Assembly: GCF_000378125.1 (NCBI RefSeq)
Contig: NZ_KB899241.1
Coordinates: forward strand, 1,525,652-1,589,651
Origin: Rudaea cellulosilytica DSM 22992
GTDB taxonomy: Bacteria > Pseudomonadota > Gammaproteobacteria > Xanthomonadales > Rhodanobacteraceae
Length of the DNA: 64,000 nt
Direction of reading: 5' to 3'
Shown here: in pieces, positions 2,975 through 59,161 of the stretch
Numbering within the stretch: position 1 is the first letter of the stretch
Layout of the letters: each line of letters starts with the position of its first letter
Position numbers and translations under genes: made by a program
The notes under the pieces: model-generated
Seen by the model: the letters and a program-made list of their open reading frames with translations, nothing else
Database searches by the model: none
Told to the model about the DNA's origin: nothing

Positions 2975-5238
<2,264 letters not shown>

Positions 5239-5241
<3 letters not shown>

Positions 5242-5277
5242 AGCCTATCCTCAAAGCGCAGTAGCTTTGAGGGCAGG
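5239..5277. repeat. Short copy of the TAG-ended inverted-repeat element; hairpin between convergent genes
   Basis: The sequence begins TAGAGCCTATCCTCAAAGC and holds a 9-bp perfect stem (CCTCAAAGC/GCTTTGAGG) with loop GCAGTA, then GGCAGGATCGGT. On the other strand it reads CTCAAAGCTACTGCGC, matching CTCAAGGCTACTGCGC inside the copy at 53437. It looks like an internally deleted member of the same family. It sits between the hemF stop and the end of the aldehyde dehydrogenase gene and may end transcription both ways, though no T-tract follows. Confidence 0.65.
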
Positions 5278-5282
5278 ATCGG

Positions 5283-52556: not shown

Positions 52557-52651
52557 GCGAGAAAAGCGAGAACATGACTGGCCATAAAGTGGGTAAAGAA
52601 AAATGTTTTTTTTCAATTTGCGCCGTTTGCGCACAGGGTGAAGCTGCATGA
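52553..52651 (+). CDS. Candidate 32-residue cysteine-rich peptide coupled to both ABC genes
   Basis: The ATG lies in the ATGA that ends the ATPase gene, and the TGA lies in the ATGA that starts the permease gene. The peptide begins MSEKSENMTGHKVGKEK and ends CFFSICAVCAQGEAA, with cysteines at 18, 23 and 26 in a short hydrophobic patch. The double overlap keeps ribosomes moving from ATPase to permease. It may be a real micropeptide or only a translational bridge. Confidence 0.45.
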   Translation: MSEKSENMTGHKVGKEKCFFSICAVCAQGEAA

Positions 52652-53439
52652 ACGCGCAAGGCAACCTCGTCGCGCTCGGCACGATCGCCCGCCGCGAAAT
52701 CGTGCGCATCCTGCGCATCTGGGCGCAGACGCTGCTGCCGCCGGCGGTGACGATGACGCTGTACTTCATCATCTTCGGCAACCTCATCGGCAGTCGCATC
52801 GGCACCATCGCCACGGACAATAGCGGTGCCGGCATATCCTACGTCGAGTACATCGCGCCGGGCCTGATCATGATGGCGGTGATACAGAATGCCTACGGCA
52901 ACATCACCAGTTCGTTCTTCGGCGCCAAGTTCCAGCGCTTCGTCGAGGAAATGCTGGTCTCGCCGATGCCGAGCTGGACGATCCTCGCCGGCTATGTCGC
53001 CGGCGCGGTGCTGCGCGGTTTCATGGTCGGCCTGATCGTGCTCGCGATCAGCCTGTTCTTCACCAAGATCCACCTGTACCACCCGATCATCACGCTGACC
53101 ACGTTCCTGCTCGCCGCGGTGATCTTCGCCCTGCTCGGTTTCGTCAACGCGATCTACGCGCGCAAGTTCGACGACATTGCGATCATCCCGACTTTCGTGC
53201 TGACCCCGCTTACGTATCTCGGCGGCGTGTTCTACAACGTCGCCCAGCTGCCGTCGCCGTGGAAAGAGATCTCGCATCTCAACCCGATCCTGTACATGGT
53301 CAACGCGTTCCGCTACGGCCTGCTCGGCGTCAGCGACATCGACCTGACCTGGGCCTACCTGATCATGCTCGCGTTCGTCGTCGTGCTCGCGACGTACTGC
53401 CTGAGCCTGTTGAGCCGCGGAGTCGGCCTGCGTTCGTAG
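52648..53439 (+). CDS. ABC exporter permease (YadH-like, ABC-2 family)
   Basis: The 263-residue membrane protein has six spans and the ABC-2 features: a cytoplasmic amphipathic start (TIARREIVRILRIWAQTLLPP), GLIMMAVIQNAYGN, the signature region LVSPMPSWTILAGYV and LTYLGGVFYNVAQLP. It forms the channel for the ATPase encoded upstream. The substrate is not known. The TAG stop begins the inverted-repeat element at 53437. Confidence 0.92.
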   Translation: MNAQGNLVALGTIARREIVRILRIWAQTLLPPAVTMTLYFIIFGNLIGSRIGTIATDNSGAGISYVEYIAPGLIMMAVIQNAYGNITSSFFGAKFQRFVEEMLVSPMPSWTILAGYVAGAVLRGFMVGLIVLAISLFFTKIHLYHPIITLTTFLLAAVIFALLGFVNAIYARKFDDIAIIPTFVLTPLTYLGGVFYNVAQLPSPWKEISHLNPILYMVNAFRYGLLGVSDIDLTWAYLIMLAFVVVLATYCLSLLSRGVGLRS

Positions 53440-53551
53440 AACCTGTCCTCAAGGCTACTGCGCTCATCCTCACATACTGTTCGTATGCTCCGGTTCTTGC
53501 GCTCCGGCGACACGCAAATTCTCTGCGCTCGCTACGCTTTGAGGACAGGTT
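53437..53551. repeat. TAG-ended inverted-repeat element, copy of 115 bp
   Basis: The left end is TAGAACCTGTCCTCAA. The right end is its partner TTTGAGGACAGGTT (13 complementary bases). A small internal hairpin, CATAC/GTATG, lies near 53473-53487. The interior CTCCGGTT...GCGCTCCGGCGACACGC recurs almost unchanged in the copy at 58145. The first three bases are the permease stop codon. Confidence 0.85.
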
Positions 53552-53654
53552 CGTCGTCCTCGGCGTCATGCCCGTGAAGTAATCGCCCACGGCGATTACC
53601 GCATTTCTGAGTGAACGGCGACGTTTCGTCGCCCGAACTTCAGGAGATGCGTCA

Positions 53655-53972
53655 ATGAACACCTCGACCGTGGCCCTTGCTGTTGCGTTCGTCGCCGCGA
53701 ACGCCAGCGCAGCCGATCCACGCACCGATATCGCACTCGATCCCGTGACGGTCAGCGGAGCGCGTGTCGTCGTCGACTGCTCCCACGTGCGCTTGCCCAG
53801 TCATCAGGCGGTCGCCGATCTGATCGACTCGAACAACATCAGCCTGATCCAGTCCGAACGCGAGCGTGCGCTGCATATCGCGCAACGCGCGTGCCTGCGT
53901 GGTGCGGCCTTCGTCGCATTCGTGCGTGACGAAGACTCAGCGCCACCCGCGCTGGCTCAGGTCCAGCCGTAA
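53655..53972 (+). CDS. Small secreted protein, family member 1
   Basis: The 105-residue protein has a signal peptide (STVALAVAFVAANASAA) and a mature part with VVVDCSHVRLP, RERALHIAQRACLRGAAFVAFVRD. The last motif recurs in the proteins at 54011 and 56715, so the three are paralogs. It has two cysteines that may form one disulfide. No known family was recognised. It lies 38 bases before the second copy; the CadC-like regulator is convergent. Confidence 0.7.
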   Translation: MNTSTVALAVAFVAANASAADPRTDIALDPVTVSGARVVVDCSHVRLPSHQAVADLIDSNNISLIQSERERALHIAQRACLRGAAFVAFVRDEDSAPPALAQVQP

Positions 53973-54010
53973 GACCGGCAGTTGCTTCGCATTTGCAAGG
54001 AGAACACGTC

Positions 54011-54355
54011 ATGTCGACCCCGACCTTGTCCGCATTCAAATCCGCCGCCGCGCTGCTGGCGATGGCGGCATGCGCTGCCTGCGCTCCACAAGTGCATGAG
54101 CGTCCCGCCAGCGCCGATGTGTTTGTGCCGTGCTGGGGCGATGCGCCGCCGCGCATGCGCCACGTCGACTGGGCCTTGAGCCAGAGCGGTCTCGTGCTCA
54201 ACCGCGCCGCCCGGGAACGGTTGCTGCATTCCGCGCAGCGCATTTGCGCCGCGGGCGCCGGTCACGCCGAATTCGTCCTGCAACCGGGCACGAATGCCAG
54301 CGCGGATGTCGCATCGGCGGCGTCGCTCGATCGGCCGGTCCTTCCAACGAGATGA
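54011..54355 (+). CDS. Small secreted protein or lipoprotein, family member 2
   Basis: The 114-residue protein has an N-terminal secretion signal (AALLAMAACAAC) with possible lipobox cysteines, then VFVPCWGDAPP and RERLLHSAQRICAAGAGHAEFV. The pattern R-E-R-x-L-H-x-A-Q-R-x-C-x-x-G-A matches the neighbour at 53655, so it is a diverged paralog. The ATG at 54011 is preceded by AAGGAGAA. Its function is unknown. It faces the regulator gene head-on, 82 bases away. Confidence 0.65.
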   Translation: MSTPTLSAFKSAAALLAMAACAACAPQVHERPASADVFVPCWGDAPPRMRHVDWALSQSGLVLNRAARERLLHSAQRICAAGAGHAEFVLQPGTNASADVASAASLDRPVLPTR

Positions 54356-54437
54356 TGCTGCCGCGCCGCGGCGCCTGCGAAATGCAGGCGGACATTCGGT
54401 CATCGGCTCATCGCTGCCGCGATCGAGCGGAAACGGC

Positions 54438-56486
54438 TCAATCGCACTTCGCGCCGTCGCCGTCCGGCCGGCACTGCGGCGGAAAGCCGCGCGCGCGCCA
54501 GTAGTCGAGAATGTGCGCGGTGCGCAGGAACTCCTGGAACTCCGGGATGCGCCGCATATGCGCATACTCGGGTTGCCAGAGCGAGAGGAAATAGCTCGGA
54601 AAGCCTTCGCGCAGCATGCTTTCGATGCGCGCGAATGCGGCATGTGCATCGAAGCCGGGCTGCTGCCAGCGCAGGAAATTGTAGCGGCCGGTCTCGCGTT
54701 CGGATGCCTCGATCAACGGCAGTACTTCAGGCCAGCGCGCGGGATCGCCGCGCGTGCGCGAGACTGCGAGGTAGGTCTCGCGATATCCGTGTTCCTCGGG
54801 AATGCGCGCGGCGATCGTTTCGGCCGCGGCGTAGTCGCCGCGCCAGAACGCGTTGTACCAAGCGGCATAGACGCCGATCTGCGGCATCGCCGCGTCGAGT
54901 TTGAACGCCGTGTCGAAGACGCGCTTGGCTTCGTCATGCTGGCCCAGTGTGTCGTACAGCCGCGCCAGGATCATCTGTGTCGGCGGCACGAGCGGATCGG
55001 TGCGCGCGGCCGCCTCGGCCTCGCGCTGCGCTTCGGCGAGGTAGCCGAGGCTGCCGAGCCGATAGGCGTAGGTGCTGCGCAGCCTGACGTCGGCCGGCGC
55101 GAGCGCGACGGCCTGCTTCGCTTCGGTGAGGCAGGTGTTCCAGTCCATGCGCCTGCAGGCGAGCATGCCGCGTGCCTCGTGCGCGTCGGCGTTGCCGGGA
55201 TCGAGCTCGAGCGCGCGCTGCGCATAGCGATCGGCTTCCTCGATCGCGCCGGGAAGCGGCGCCTGGGTGCGCTGATCGCGCCAGCCCGCGAGCACGCGCG
55301 CGAGATAGCCCAACGCTATCGGCTTGTCCGGTGCGCGCGCGATCAGTTCGCGCAGGCGGGCGAGGGCGGTTTCCTGGCGCGGCCGGTTCAGCGCGGCGTT
55401 GAGCGTCACTTCGGGCGATTCCAGCATGGCACGCAGTTCCACGTACTCGCGGTACTGGGTCAGGTCGAACTTGTCTTCGCGCGGCGTCGCGGACAGGCCC
55501 AGGCGCGCTGCAAGCGCGGTGCTGACCGCCTGGGCAATCTCGCGCTGGATGGCGAACACGTCGGCGAGCTTGCGTTCGTAGTCCTGCGCCCACAGCGTGC
55601 GGCCCGACGGTGTCTCGATCAGGCGCAGGTCGATGCGCAGTGCGTCGCCCGACTCGCGCAAGCTGCCTTCGAGCGCATGCGTGGTGCCCGCGCGCTGGGC
55701 GAGCTGCTGCGGATCGAGATGTTGTTCCAGCGCGAGCCGCGCCGACGTGCTCGAAATCACCTGCAGTCCCTCGGCGTGCGCGAGCCGCGTGATCAGCTCT
55801 TCGGACAAGCCGTCGGCCAGGACCGCCTCGTCGTGGCCGCCGCCGACCGCGCGCAGTGGCAGCACGATCAGCGTCGGAATGGTGGCGGGGCGGAGCGGCG
55901 CGGCCGGCTCGGCGCCGCGACGCATGAGCCATGCGGCGAGGCCGACGGCCAACATGAGCGCGGCCAGCGCAGCGACGACGTATCGCGATGAAGGGCGCTG
56001 TGTGCTTGGCACAGGAGCGGACGACACGCTGACCTCGCGGTCACTTGCGATCGGTGACGGCAGCGGCGGTGCCTGCGACGTCGATGAAACTCCGCCAAAC
56101 GTCTGGCGCAGATCGAGAGCCGGCGGCTCGGCGTCGGCGCCTTGTTCCAGTTCGGTCACTTGCTTCCGCGGTGCAGCCTGCACATCCGCATCGAAGCGGT
56201 AGCCGACGCCGTGCAGCGTATGGATGTACTGCTGGCGCTCGGCGCTTTCGCCGAGCGCCTGGCGCAGCAAGGTGACGACGCGGTTGAGCACGCCCGGGGT
56301 GACGTGGCGATGGCCCCAGACGGCATCGAGAATCTCGTCGCGGGTGAAGGCCCGGCCCGGCTGGCGCGCGAACAGCAGCAGCACGTCGAACGCCTTCGGC
56401 TCCAGCCGCATCTCGCGCCCGGACACGACCAATCGGCGCCCAACCGTATCGATCTCGACTGTGTCGAACCCGATCCAGCGTTCCAT
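54438..56486 (-). CDS. CadC-like membrane-bound winged-helix regulator with TPR domain
   Basis: The protein (682 residues from the ATG at 56486, which has GAGGTG before it; another ATG lies at 56504) has an N-terminal OmpR-type winged helix: LEPKAFDVLLLFARQPGRAFTR and YIHTLHGVGYRFDADV. A low-complexity linker and one membrane span at about residue 175 follow (VVAALAALMLAVGLAAWLM). The C-terminal part, presumably periplasmic, has an adenylate-cyclase-like strand region (LPLRAVGGGHDEAVLADGLSEEL) and TPR helices. It is probably a membrane sensor that regulates genes directly, perhaps the adjoining secreted-protein genes. Confidence 0.85.
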   Translation of the reverse strand: MERWIGFDTVEIDTVGRRLVVSGREMRLEPKAFDVLLLFARQPGRAFTRDEILDAVWGHRHVTPGVLNRVVTLLRQALGESAERQQYIHTLHGVGYRFDADVQAAPRKQVTELEQGADAEPPALDLRQTFGGVSSTSQAPPLPSPIASDREVSVSSAPVPSTQRPSSRYVVAALAALMLAVGLAAWLMRRGAEPAAPLRPATIPTLIVLPLRAVGGGHDEAVLADGLSEELITRLAHAEGLQVISSTSARLALEQHLDPQQLAQRAGTTHALEGSLRESGDALRIDLRLIETPSGRTLWAQDYERKLADVFAIQREIAQAVSTALAARLGLSATPREDKFDLTQYREYVELRAMLESPEVTLNAALNRPRQETALARLRELIARAPDKPIALGYLARVLAGWRDQRTQAPLPGAIEEADRYAQRALELDPGNADAHEARGMLACRRMDWNTCLTEAKQAVALAPADVRLRSTYAYRLGSLGYLAEAQREAEAAARTDPLVPPTQMILARLYDTLGQHDEAKRVFDTAFKLDAAMPQIGVYAAWYNAFWRGDYAAAETIAARIPEEHGYRETYLAVSRTRGDPARWPEVLPLIEASERETGRYNFLRWQQPGFDAHAAFARIESMLREGFPSYFLSLWQPEYAHMRRIPEFQEFLRTAHILDYWRARGFPPQCRPDGDGAKCD

Positions 56487-56593
56487 TCGCACCTCGTCCT
56501 GCATCGCCGGCTCGTCAGTCGTGCCCAGGGATATTGAAGAATAATCAGTGGGAAACAACCGGTTATTGCAATTCTTGCGGTGCCCTAAGCATT

Positions 56594-56649
56594 CCCAAGC
56601 TTTCCCGCGCCGCGCTCAAGGGTTTCCCAATCGCGCCCTCAAGCTTGGG
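56594..56649. promoter_or_regulatory. Inverted repeat upstream of the secreted-protein gene
   Basis: CCCAAGCTT (56594-56602) and AAGCTTGGG (56641-56649) are perfect inverted repeats 38 bases apart, in the 228-base divergent gap between the CadC-like regulator and the 56715 gene. They are a plausible pair of half-sites for that regulator. The gap holds no ORF with a ribosome site. Confidence 0.45.
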
Positions 56650-56714
56650 TCAAGGCGTTTCGCGATGCTGTCTCCAACCGGCGCATCCCGCACCGGATTC
56701 CATCGGAGAGCACC

Positions 56715-57053
56715 ATGAACATTCTACGCACAACTCTTATCGCCGCGTTGAACTTTGCCGTTGCGCAGTCCGTATCCGCTGCGGGCGTCGAGCCTGAACA
56801 GACCGCGCTATCCGCCATCGCCGTGCGTGCCGGCGCGGCGCTCGTCGTCGACTGCCGTCACGAAAAGCTGCCGGCTCGCAGCGCCGTTGGCGCCGTGCTC
56901 GAGACGAACAATGCGAGCGCGATTGAACGCGGCCGCGAAGTCGTCGAGCACTACGCCCATCGCGAGTGCCTGCGTGGTGCGGATTTCGTCGCCTTCGTGC
57001 GCGACGGCTCGACCGCACCGGCCTCGCTGGCGCTAGCCGGCATGCAGCCCTGA
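56715..57053 (+). CDS. Small secreted protein, family member 3
   Basis: The 112-residue protein has a signal peptide (TTLIAALNFAVAQSVSA) and a mature part with ALVVDCRHEKLP and HRECLRGADFVAFVRDG. It is the closest relative of the protein at 53655 (shared VVDC, NN, CLRGA-FVAFVRD, and a QP end). GGAG precedes the ATG by seven bases. It is divergent from the CadC-like regulator, the classical layout of a regulator and its target. Confidence 0.72.
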   Translation: MNILRTTLIAALNFAVAQSVSAAGVEPEQTALSAIAVRAGAALVVDCRHEKLPARSAVGAVLETNNASAIERGREVVEHYAHRECLRGADFVAFVRDGSTAPASLALAGMQP

Positions 57054-57064
57054 GCAACTTAACG

Positions 57065-57090
57065 GCAGCGGCGCGCGAGCTCGCCGCTGC
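57065..57090. terminator. Hairpin after the third secreted-protein gene
   Basis: GCAGCGGCG/CGCCGCTGC, 9 bp with an eight-base loop, starts 12 bases after the stop. No T-run follows. The remainder of the 200-base gap to the DUF2167 gene shows no clear feature. Confidence 0.5.
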
Positions 57091-57253
57091 GGTATGTCGA
57101 TCGCGCTGCAGTGGAACTCGAATGCTGTGGACTCGCGCAGGCGATCGCTGCGCAGCCGCGTCCGCGACGAGGGATGCATCGGCTTGCGCGGCTGAATCGC
57201 CCCCGGCATGCTTGCGCCGTTGCCAAGAGGGCAACGCTAACCTCGGGGGAAAC

Positions 57254-58147
57254 ATGATGTTGCGTGCGCTGGCCCTGTTTGCGGCCTGTCTTTTCGTTGG
57301 TCAATCCGCCGTCGCTGACGACGCTGCTCCGGCGGGGCAGAAGACCGTCCAGCAATTCGTCGATTCGCTGCATTTCCAGACCGGCACGGTCAAGGTCGCG
57401 CGCGCGAACGCGTCGCTGAAACTCGATGACAGCTTCCGCTATCTCGATGCGCGCGACGCACAGCGCGTGCTCGAGCAGCTCTGGGGCAATCCCCCCGACG
57501 CCGACGTGCTCGGCATGCTCGTGCCGACCGCGGCACCGCTGACCGAGGAAAAGGGCTCGTGGGCGGTCGTCGTCACCTATTCGAACGACGGCTACGTCTC
57601 CGACGCCGAGGCGGGCAAGATCGACTACACGAAGATGCTCCACGACATGCAGGAGGCGACGCACGAGGCGAATGCCGGGCGCAAACAGCACGGCTATCCC
57701 GCGGTCGACCTGGTCGGCTGGGCCGAGCCGCCGCACTACGATGCGGCGTCGAACAAGCTCTACTGGGCCAAGGATCTCGCCTTCGGCGACGGCAAGGAAC
57801 ACACGCTCAATTACGATATCCGCGTGCTCGGCCGCGGCGGTTATCTGAGCCTCAATGCGGTCGCCGGCATGAGCCAGCTCGACACGGTCAAGGCGGAAAT
57901 GCCGAAAGTACTGGCGATGACCGAATTCGATCCCGGCCAGCGTTACGCCGACTTCAATTCCTCGACCGACAAGATCGCCGCCTACGGCATCGGTGCGCTC
58001 GTCGCCGGCACGCTTGCGGCCAAGGCCGGCCTGTTCGCCAAACTGTTCGCCATGCTGCTCGCATTCAAGAAGGTCATCATCGGCGGCGCGATCGCGCTGT
58101 TCGCGGCGGCCGGACGGCTGTTCGGGCGCAAGTCCAAGTCCGACTAG
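57254..58147 (+). CDS. DUF2167 membrane protein
   Basis: The 297-residue protein has a signal peptide (LRALALFAACLFVGQSAVA), a long soluble domain with DDSFRYLDARDAQRVLEQLWGNPP and SWAVVVTYSNDGYVSDAEAGKIDY, and two C-terminal membrane spans (GALVAGTLAAKAGLFAKLFA, VIIGGAIALFAAAGRL) with a basic tail. The WAVVV-Y--DGYV pattern and the GYVSD region are typical of DUF2167. Its function is unknown. The TAG stop begins the inverted-repeat element at 58145. Confidence 0.85.
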   Translation: MMLRALALFAACLFVGQSAVADDAAPAGQKTVQQFVDSLHFQTGTVKVARANASLKLDDSFRYLDARDAQRVLEQLWGNPPDADVLGMLVPTAAPLTEEKGSWAVVVTYSNDGYVSDAEAGKIDYTKMLHDMQEATHEANAGRKQHGYPAVDLVGWAEPPHYDAASNKLYWAKDLAFGDGKEHTLNYDIRVLGRGGYLSLNAVAGMSQLDTVKAEMPKVLAMTEFDPGQRYADFNSSTDKIAAYGIGALVAGTLAAKAGLFAKLFAMLLAFKKVIIGGAIALFAAAGRLFGRKSKSD

Positions 58148-58372
58148 AACCTGTCTCAAAACTGCTGCGCTCGACCCGATCCCATCTAAGATCGGGCGCG
58201 CCGGCGGTGCTCGGAATGCGAAGGCAGGATGCCGAAGCGAACAGCGAAGCTGGCCCGCAGGGCATGCCGCAGGAGCGGCATGTAATCCTCATGTACTGAA
58301 AGTACACTCCGGTTCCTGCGCTCCGGCGACACGCGAACTGTCTTCGCTCGCTACGTTTTGAGATAGGTTCTA
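58145..58372. repeat. TAG-ended inverted-repeat element, copy of 228 bp
   Basis: The ends are TAGAACCTGTCTCAAAAC and GTTTTGAGATAGGTTCTA. They pair over 18 bases with one mismatch. The interior shares CTCCGGTT-CTGCGCTCCGGCGACACGC with the copy at 53437 and holds about 110 extra bases near the left arm. A small hairpin TGTACT/AGTACA replaces the CATAC/GTATG one of the other copy. The element begins at the DUF2167 stop and ends at the tatD stop, both TAG. Confidence 0.88.
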
Positions 58373-59161
58373 ACCCAGCAGGGCGAAGAATTTGCGCGCC
58401 GTCGCCGTCGCATTCGCGGCGGTGACAGCGACGTCCTCGCTGCGGTCGCGCGCGACTTCCGCGCAGATGTGGGCGAGGTACATCGGCTCGTTGCGCCGAT
58501 GCGAAGGCATCGGCTTGACCGTGCGCGGCAGCAGGTAAGGCGCATCGGTTTCGAGCATGAGTCGATCGGCGGGGATGCTTTTCACGAGCTCGCGCAGGTG
58601 CGCACCGCGGCGCTCGTCGCAGATCCAGCCGGTGATGCCGATGTGGAAATCGCGGTCGAGATAGTCGAACAGTTCGTTCTTTTCGCCGGTGAAGCAGTGC
58701 ACGACGGCCGCGCCGATGCGGCCGCGCACGTTGTCCATGCAGGCGAGGAAATCCAGATGCGCGTCGCGCTGGTGCAGGAACAGCGGCTTGCCGCACTCCA
58801 TCGCCAATTGCAGTTGCCGCTCGAACGCGAACAGCTGCGCCTCGCGCGGGGAGAAGTTGCGATGGAAGTCGAGTCCGGTTTCGCCGACGGCGACGACCTC
58901 GGGTTTGGCCTGGTATTCGCGCAGCAGCGTTTCGGTTTCCGAATCGAAGTCGCTTGCGTGGTGCGGGTGCACGCCCGCAGTCGCATATAGCAAGTGCGGA
59001 TGCGCGAGCGCGAGCGCGAGCGCATCGCGCGTGCCCTGCACGCTCGCGCCGGTGACGACGAGCTGGTCGATGCCGTGCGCCTGCGCGCGCGCGAGCACGG
59101 CGTCGAAATCGTGGCGGAAGGATTCGTGGGTGAGGTTGGCGCCGATGTCAACTAGCTGCAT
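58370..59161 (-). CDS. tatD: TatD-family 3'-5' DNase/hydrolase
   Basis: The 263-residue TIM-barrel metal-dependent hydrolase opens VDIGANLTHESFRHDFDAVL, the form of TatD proper (DIG-NLT) rather than the HxH opening of YcfH and YjjV. It has AGVHPHHASDFD, AVGETGLDFHRNFSPREAQ, PLFLHQRDAH, VVHCFTGEKNEL and LMLETDAPYLLPR. E. coli TatD is a magnesium-dependent 3'-5' exonuclease for single-stranded DNA and RNA. The TAG stop is the terminal triplet of the inverted-repeat element. Confidence 0.93.
   Translation of the reverse strand: MQLVDIGANLTHESFRHDFDAVLARAQAHGIDQLVVTGASVQGTRDALALALAHPHLLYATAGVHPHHASDFDSETETLLREYQAKPEVVAVGETGLDFHRNFSPREAQLFAFERQLQLAMECGKPLFLHQRDAHLDFLACMDNVRGRIGAAVVHCFTGEKNELFDYLDRDFHIGITGWICDERRGAHLRELVKSIPADRLMLETDAPYLLPRTVKPMPSHRRNEPMYLAHICAEVARDRSEDVAVTAANATATARKFFALLG

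Follow-up and report, generated by a model that had tools for sequence, protein, structure and literature searches.

A probable non-autonomous hairpin element with IS5-like ends, often inserted at stop codons in Rudaea cellulosilytica

As described in PMC2229807, the ERIC (IRU, RU-1) repeat of enterobacteria is a palindromic, gene-associated repeat of about 127 bp that targets TA, and in Yersinia its orientation governs its effect on mRNA stability. In the same account, RUP of Streptococcus pneumoniae is a repeat with ends like those of an insertion sequence (IS), here IS630-Spn1, that inserts at TA, and the Correia or NEMIS repeats of Neisseria are about 105-155 bp long, with TA at the ends, a 50-bp internal sequence and RNA hairpins. 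A further system to be compared is sX9 (Rfam RF02228), a small RNA (sRNA) family of Xanthomonas that is listed in PMC9029176 among the top 20 most prevalent bacterial sRNAs. Here we describe a dispersed hairpin element of Rudaea cellulosilytica DSM 22992, taking as the starting point a window, that is, the whole stretch of 64,000 nucleotides that was analysed (contig NZ_KB899241.1, positions 1,525,652 to 1,589,651). We consider it probable that this is a non-autonomous element with exchangeable ends, for which IS5-type transposases are the movers.

Copies of the element are dispersed in the R. cellulosilytica genome. The covariance model R1, made from 38 short copies, gave 70 matches at E<=1e-4, 70 BLAST pieces matched the longer window copy (copy 2, below) at E<=1, and the sX9 model gave 72 matches at E<=1, only one of which was over the Rfam cut-off. 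A preliminary description had proposed an inverted-repeat element from the window copies; by each of these searches dozens of copies were found. The sX9 matches and one BLAST place make 73 places, and 65 anchored copies were retained once six places without anchors and two chance or odd matches, C2:667309 and C4:324879, had been excluded. Model R1 lists at least one copy beyond the 65 (C4:288068), and a short form at hemF (below) also lies outside this count, as do L036 (G000:C5:50944-51026) and L100 (G000:C2:970472-970555), in which the optional module of the long form apparently stands alone without core or ends.

The element has no coding region, and its copies share a core of about 110 bp that folds as one long hairpin. 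An outer stem, mostly of 15-19 bp, is followed inwards by the anchors CTACTGCGCTCG and CGCTCGCTACG and by a second stem, and the apex has the form GGTGCTCGGAATCC-TCA-[NNTAC..GTANN]-CTCCGGTTCCTGCGC. The core is 100-113 nt long in 38 of the anchored copies and longer than 130 nt in 21, most of which carry an extra module; the other 6 have other sizes. RNAalifold analysis of the 38 short copies showed that 94.3% of the cells are paired and that 253 cells are changed on both sides, as compared with 81.8 +/- 7.8 in 500 shuffles and 27-53 when the partner columns were slid. The shared interior and the small hairpin with exchanged pairs, which the preliminary description had noticed in the window, are therefore real. 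The outer-stem sequences vary between copies (GAACCTATCTCAAAAC, GGGAACCTCTAAAAACC, GGGCACCTCGAAAAACC, TGCACCTGCCTCAAAATC and others), while the complementarity inside each stem is largely kept (90.1% of helix 1 cells paired). Among 168 distinct elements parsed, the outer stem scored at least 8 in 118, and the stem lengths peak at 17-18 bp. The element thus has the features of a miniature inverted-repeat transposable element (MITE), being short, multi-copy (70 matches), non-coding and bounded by terminal inverted repeats (118 of 168).

The joined flanks of 16 copies were compared with the congeners, and 20 orthologous places, corresponding to 11 sites, were fetched. At 10 of the 11 sites the element is absent from the congener (3 of these align poorly at the junction), and at the eleventh, C1:1685517, a short relic is present in G010. 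The cleanest empty site reads AAAGG-TTGA-[element]-TTGA-TTCGC in R. cellulosilytica and AAAGGTTGATTCGC in G002; other empty sites read CGCTGA, CGTTAA and ATGAAATGA, and at each junction the upstream gene has its stop codon. The duplicated target varies with the type of end: GAACCTATCTC ends go with TA, three copies of the GAACCTGTCC / GAAACCTCC kind have TGA, and GGAACCTCTGA-like ends have four bases (TTGA, CTGA, CAAG); TAA or TTA duplications were read from the flanks of Xanthomonas and Rhodanobacter copies. Of 37 R. cellulosilytica copies with GGAACCTCT-like ends, a set that also took in copies with another end group whose TA flanks were read by eye, 10 show four and 4 show three equal flank bases (five trial offsets). 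The corresponding shuffle means were 1.9 for four bases and 4.5 for three or four (maximum 11), and none of 1000 shuffles gave as many. Of 86 elements, 11 have 3-bp repeats at offset -1 (null mean 1.5, maximum 6). Both target-site duplications (14 of 37 copies) and empty sites, as expected of a MITE, are thus present. One of the two readings offered in the preliminary description, a non-autonomous element settling at gene ends, is supported by these empty sites and duplications and by the finding of IS with the same ends.

To turn to these IS, the search for DDE_Tnp_1 transposases gave 17 matches in 7 of the 16 genomes of the genus, and ends were comparable at eight of the 17 loci (L280, L281, L283, L284, L286, L287, L290 and L294; one end only for L283 and L286). 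L284, in the congener G003, is an IS of 839 bp whose transposase fits NCBIfam transpos_IS5_3 with 219.8 bits. Its right end, GAACCTATCTCAAAATC, is identical to an element end of G003 at 17 of 17 positions and its left end at 16 of 17, and none of 500 shuffles was as good. Two IS kinds fitting IS5_4 match other element ends, L280 at 14 of 17 and L294 at 15 of 19 positions (0-2 of 500 shuffles). These IS5-family IS carry a transposase, whereas the element is gene-free, and L284 does not contain the core. Besides L284, G003 contains a fragmentary relative of its transposase, and remnants are present in G001, G004 and G010. The search for a transposase with the same ends, as suggested in the preliminary description, was therefore successful for one end type exactly and for two partially, and it succeeded only in congeners. 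IS5 subgroups use the targets TA, TNA and YTAR. From the end matches, we infer that movement in trans by IS5-type transposases is the best explanation.

Since one and the same core is found with different types of end, core and ends behave in a modular way. Of five genomes from other families, four (G070, G155, G104 and G067) each have a prevailing end type on the same core, and G175 is mixed, as judged from at most nine copies per genome. In G104 (L399-L459), nine copies have a common difference between the arms, CAGGCC on the left against mostly CAGGGT on the right, which suggests recent amplification from one copy. In the genome of L157 (X. hortorum), L379-L384 have the same GAGCGGCTAACAAAAC ends; they include elements of about 430-530 bp, of which, among L381-L384, only L384 has the core apex, and L379 and L380, two pairs of 1.6-1.7 kb in which an IS110-like and an IS5-like gene (named by reading) lie between the ends. 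At L115/L283 (G004:C405), an IS5-type IS whose end reads ..GACCTTCC borders, at TAA, an element with the ends TAAGGAAGCTCTG..; since the IS end lies directly at the TAA of the element, IS and element share the target.

The diversity of ends might alternatively result from drift together with correction of the palindrome, one arm being copied onto the other, rather than from exchange with different IS. Intermediate end types exist, Watson-Crick pairing is kept without an excess of wobble pairs, and the identity with an IS is exact for one end type only, all of which would be expected from such a process. On the other hand, 16 of 698 pairs of R. cellulosilytica copies have cores at least 93% alike and both arms at most 65% alike, the first of them with 98% for the core and 47% for the arms. 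Such nearly identical cores with quite different ends, the change of duplication length with end type and the exact IS-end match make this explanation unlikely.

As to the spread of the element, model R1 found it in 16 of 16 genomes of the genus (R. cellulosilytica included), in 0 of 8 from other genera of the family and in 4 of 16 of the order, and at the level of the class in 21 of 151 genomes (R. cellulosilytica again included), each from a different family, at E<=1e-6. Within the genus the copy number is patchy, from 1 to 70. The exact 31-base apex pattern occurs in at least 110 stretches (L139-L248), whose apex is conserved by construction because this pattern fetched them. The 80 named apex matches belong to beta- and gammaproteobacteria or unplaced Proteobacteria, and the named hosts include Xanthomonas, Halomonas, Herbaspirillum, Thiobacillus, Acidovorax and Roseateles. 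In L204:3220-3360 and L186 at about 4280-4400, where the element lies between groES and groEL, its right arm is complementary to the last groES codons, as if the arm had copied the flank or the core had sat in an existing hairpin. In the Salmonella ryhB-yhhX interval (L347:1192-1353) the apex is overlapped by a gene annotated as a hypothetical protein, which may be a spurious call. Carriage by phages or plasmids was set aside, as a search with one short element as query returned only two multi-megabase E. coli records deposited as plasmids and, for phages, one 515-kb Salmonella contig.

The stop of a called gene lies within -4..+5 of the nominal boundary in 40 of the 65 anchored copies, most at +2 or +4, and a gene end is found at +1..+4 in 33 of them. 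As a control, the 207 non-coding TNA sites of the window outside the elements were taken; a stop falls into the same span at 32 of them, and 29 coincide with the stop itself. The excess over this matched control (Fisher p 3e-12; the p-values given here ignore kinship among copies) persists though the control already allows for target choice, and so the boundaries are not placed at random relative to stops. Copy number and position, the two points on which the preliminary description could have failed, thus both came out in its favour. One copy, C3:381777, was scored as having none by the gene caller, yet by reading its TGA closes an open frame. In the congeners readable at a site, where the element is absent, the stop is at the same codon. 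What the insertion duplicates is the TNA or TA of a stop that was already there, and where G is the first base of the end after TA, TAG is written; because stops serve as the TNA or TA targets, insertion leaves them intact. The ends do not supply stops in the sense first proposed, therefore: a TAG is indeed written by G-starting ends, but no open gene was given a stop.

The features of the window that illustrate this are as follows.

53437..53438: left TA of element copy 1, the target dinucleotide and part of the permease stop TAG; read directly
53439..53552 (G to C), plus strand: element copy 1, read directly; outer stem GAACCTGTCCTCAAGGC / GCTTTGAGGACAGGTTC; fold z -7.1
53472..53547, plus strand: match to positions 1-76 of the sX9 (RF02228) model in copy 1; 40.8 bits (cut-off 44)
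58145..58146: left TA of element copy 2, in the stop codon of the DUF2167 gene; read directly
58147..58370 (G to C), plus strand: element copy 2 in its long form, with GAACCTGTCTCAAAAC / GTTTTGAGATAGGTTC as the outer stem; fold z -6.4
58291..58368, plus strand: match to the whole sX9 model in copy 2; 40.2 bits (cut-off 44)
58371..58372: right TA of copy 2, which with C58370 forms the tatD stop codon on the minus strand
5241..5280 (G to C), minus strand: short form, core lost; left end + CTACTGCGC + right end
4210-5241: hemF (PF01218); the TAG at the element edge is its stop
52648-53439: ABC-2 permease gene (PF01061); the TAG at the element edge is its stop
ending at 58147: DUF2167 gene (PF09935); the TAG at the element edge is its stop
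58370-59161, minus strand: tatD (PF01026); the TAG at the element edge is its stop

As the preliminary description had it, the TAG is the stop of all four genes, which were identified by Pfam. Copy 1 (114 bp) is internally shortened, with a core of 82 nt as compared with 104-111 nt for the usual short core, and its right flank has no TA. Copy 2 (224 bp) has TA on both sides, and its core is enlarged by a module of about 68-80 nt and by a further hairpin (CCCGATC..GATCGGG). The short form lies directly at the hemF stop (TAG 5239-5241) and has a z of -5.1 when folded as RNA. It had been read as the product of an internal deletion; the layout of end, insert and end holds, with the correction that the insert is CTACTGCGC and the order is that of the minus strand. 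At the window site, the permease gene and tatD converge on one shared CTAG in the congeners G006, G007 and G013. In R. cellulosilytica the 4.9 kb between them (53437-58372) holds a Trans_reg_C/TPR gene, small open frames and the DUF2167 gene, and this block is bracketed by both element copies with TA and TA as outer flanks, the pattern expected from a composite insertion. In some other congeners related genes seemingly lie beside tatD with no element in view (by reading).

The copies at stops are strongly biased in orientation. Taken by the strand that matches sX9, the stop-adjacent R. cellulosilytica copies run along the upstream gene in 35 cases and against it in 3, with 2 adjoining stops on both sides and 25 none (n=65). 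The corresponding numbers are 10, 2, 3 and 10 in the congeners (n=25), 34, 7, 2 and 47 in other taxa (n=90 with long enough flanks), and 19, 7, 0 and 40 in five genomes of other families (n=66; p 0.029), the last set coming from 80 matches, of which 70 were given coordinates and 4 were dropped for short flanks. For co-directional copies lying away from stops, the sense and antisense counts are 5 and 5 in R. cellulosilytica and 23 and 8 in other taxa; the difference between stop and non-stop copies has a Fisher p of 0.010 in the former and 0.18 in the latter. Either aimed insertion or selection for a sense hairpin may account for the bias.

A dedicated mechanism, single-strand or transcription-coupled, that aims insertion at stops in one orientation, in place of an IS5 reaction followed by purging, would explain why the ratios at stops (35:3, 34:7, 19:7) are so uneven and why the R. 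cellulosilytica copies away from stops are unbiased. In the outer stems of 118 elements, A.C mismatches number 65 and G.U pairs 24 in the sX9 orientation (53 and 21 in unique contexts), so that G.T is tolerated on the other strand, as expected of a single-strand hairpin of the bottom strand. We nevertheless regard such a mechanism as quite unlikely, because the bias extends to copies away from stops in other taxa, the targets also include CAAG and CTAG, which are unrelated to stops, and IS5-like ends with 2-4 bp duplications suffice to explain the position.

The favoured explanation can be put as follows. A gene-free mobile DNA, made of the core hairpin of about 110 bp, optional extra modules and IS5-like terminal inverted repeats of 15-19 bp, would be cut at its ends in trans by transposases of different IS5 subgroups and inserted into short targets according to the type of end: TA (2 bp), TGA, TAA or TTA (3 bp), and TTGA, CTGA or CAAG (4 bp). 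In GC-rich genomes non-coding targets of this kind would be common at stop codons, and insertion there would be harmless because the target triplet is duplicated or because TA and the first G of the element write TAG, between convergent genes on both strands. The copies at stop codons would mostly be kept, or preferentially inserted, in the orientation in which the sX9 strand is the sense strand of the upstream gene; the mRNA of that gene would then carry the hairpin as its 3' part, where it may affect processing or stability.

Several observations weigh against this explanation. In R. cellulosilytica, whose genome is 99.99% complete, the searches for a PF01609 (DDE_Tnp_1) transposase (E<=0.001) and for relatives of the L284 transposase (E<=1e-10) were both negative, and thus no such partner is present now. 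L284 itself has no clear TA duplication in its flanks, and among the eight loci compared L281, L287 and L290 match no element end. An IS partner for the Xanthomonas ends was not seen in the genomes of L142, L157, L173 and L185 (regions were read only from that of L157), nor was an IS with G104-type ends seen in G104. A readable duplication is missing in 23 of the 37 copies examined, and a strong ungapped outer stem in 50 of the 168 elements, some of them from Burkholderiales. The orientation bias is unexpected for a plain inverted-repeat element, and the ratio of 5:5 away from stops speaks against general selection for sense transcription in R. cellulosilytica, but the ratio elsewhere is 23:8. 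The stop control (32 of 207) was obtained with a simple gene caller from a single 64-kb window, and the counts from other taxa (34 against 7) are not independent, as several loci come from the same assembly, one bin contributing many.

It might also be that the element is primarily a functional RNA, an sX9-like 3' element or an sRNA inherited with the genes, its dispersal and inverted ends being secondary. The 3' half of the element is matched by the 76-nt sX9 model over its whole length, the compensatory change is strong, the orientation is biased, and sX9 is reported in PMC10924375 to be upregulated under copper in X. campestris. The model represents half of a palindrome, and the 5' arm, ends and modules are not covered by it; the two window copies score below the gathering cut-off, and the Rfam scan of the window gave no family at cut-off, sX9 appearing only in E-value mode. 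A copy number of 1-70 within one genus, the empty orthologous sites and the position of 14 of the 25 R. cellulosilytica copies away from stops between divergent genes argue against inheritance as an RNA with the genes. The excess of A.C over G.U in the end stems is the reverse of that expected from selection on the sX9 strand, so that RNA from this strand is probably not what keeps the ends paired and was set aside as the sole cause of the end stems; yet the inner helix 2 of A1 varies by G.U. Taken together, we consider a primarily RNA origin very unlikely. The conserved RNA or terminator structure that the preliminary description had offered as its second reading may still be a function carried by the mobile element, given the conserved structure of the core and the bias in orientation. 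That the element is a bidirectional intrinsic terminator (A-tract, GC-rich hairpin and T-tract; AAAAC..GTTTT) selected at gene ends is highly improbable, for in spite of a stable hairpin (folding z -5 to -10), a T-run in many copies and inner end positions that are nearly always A-U (A1 columns 16-17, 35 and 36 of 38), among 37 copies that meet a stop at their left boundary, 30 are followed by a co-directional gene, as compared with 29 of 59 gene ends in the window, one Rubrivivax and one Acidovorax record have a copy in the interval from groES to groEL (genes named by reading), and copies free of a T-tract exist, e.g. L217.

Among the described systems, ERIC is not known to have ends of more than one type. 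The printed Salmonella ERIC sequence contains the apex motif of the element, TCA-NNTAC-N4-GTANN-CTCC (0 of 20000 shuffles), as well as TTCGCTCGCT; the motif was chosen after both ERIC and the element had been seen, and its strict form occurs in 87 of the 168 elements. By nhmmer, a profile of 154 elements gave no match to the 127-bp ERIC sequence at E<=1000, and the putative kinship with ERIC rests on this one motif. It is a tentative and rather doubtful idea that ERIC, sX9 and the present elements form one ancient superfamily of mobile hairpins in beta- and gammaproteobacteria, with an apex bound by a conserved host factor, interchangeable IS5-type ends and an oriented placement at stops that provides a regulated mRNA 3' end. 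If the element is what we propose, half of a mobile element would have been annotated widely as a bacterial sRNA family, a single core that bears the ends of several groups of transposons would parasitise many transposases, and its exact, oriented placement at stops would link transposition, translation ends and mRNA 3' structure throughout the genome. No description of the element was found in the open-access literature, a search that left most subscription papers outside and does not show its absence from print. In the description of PMC2229807, RUP has one IS partner and the Correia/NEMIS repeats are those of Neisseria; by comparison, the element described here occurs in many families and joins a single core to several IS5-like ends. 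A MITE-like repeat as such is known; the new features are the combination of a single core with several types of IS5-like end, the reach of the element through beta- and gammaproteobacteria, and its bias in position and orientation at stop codons.

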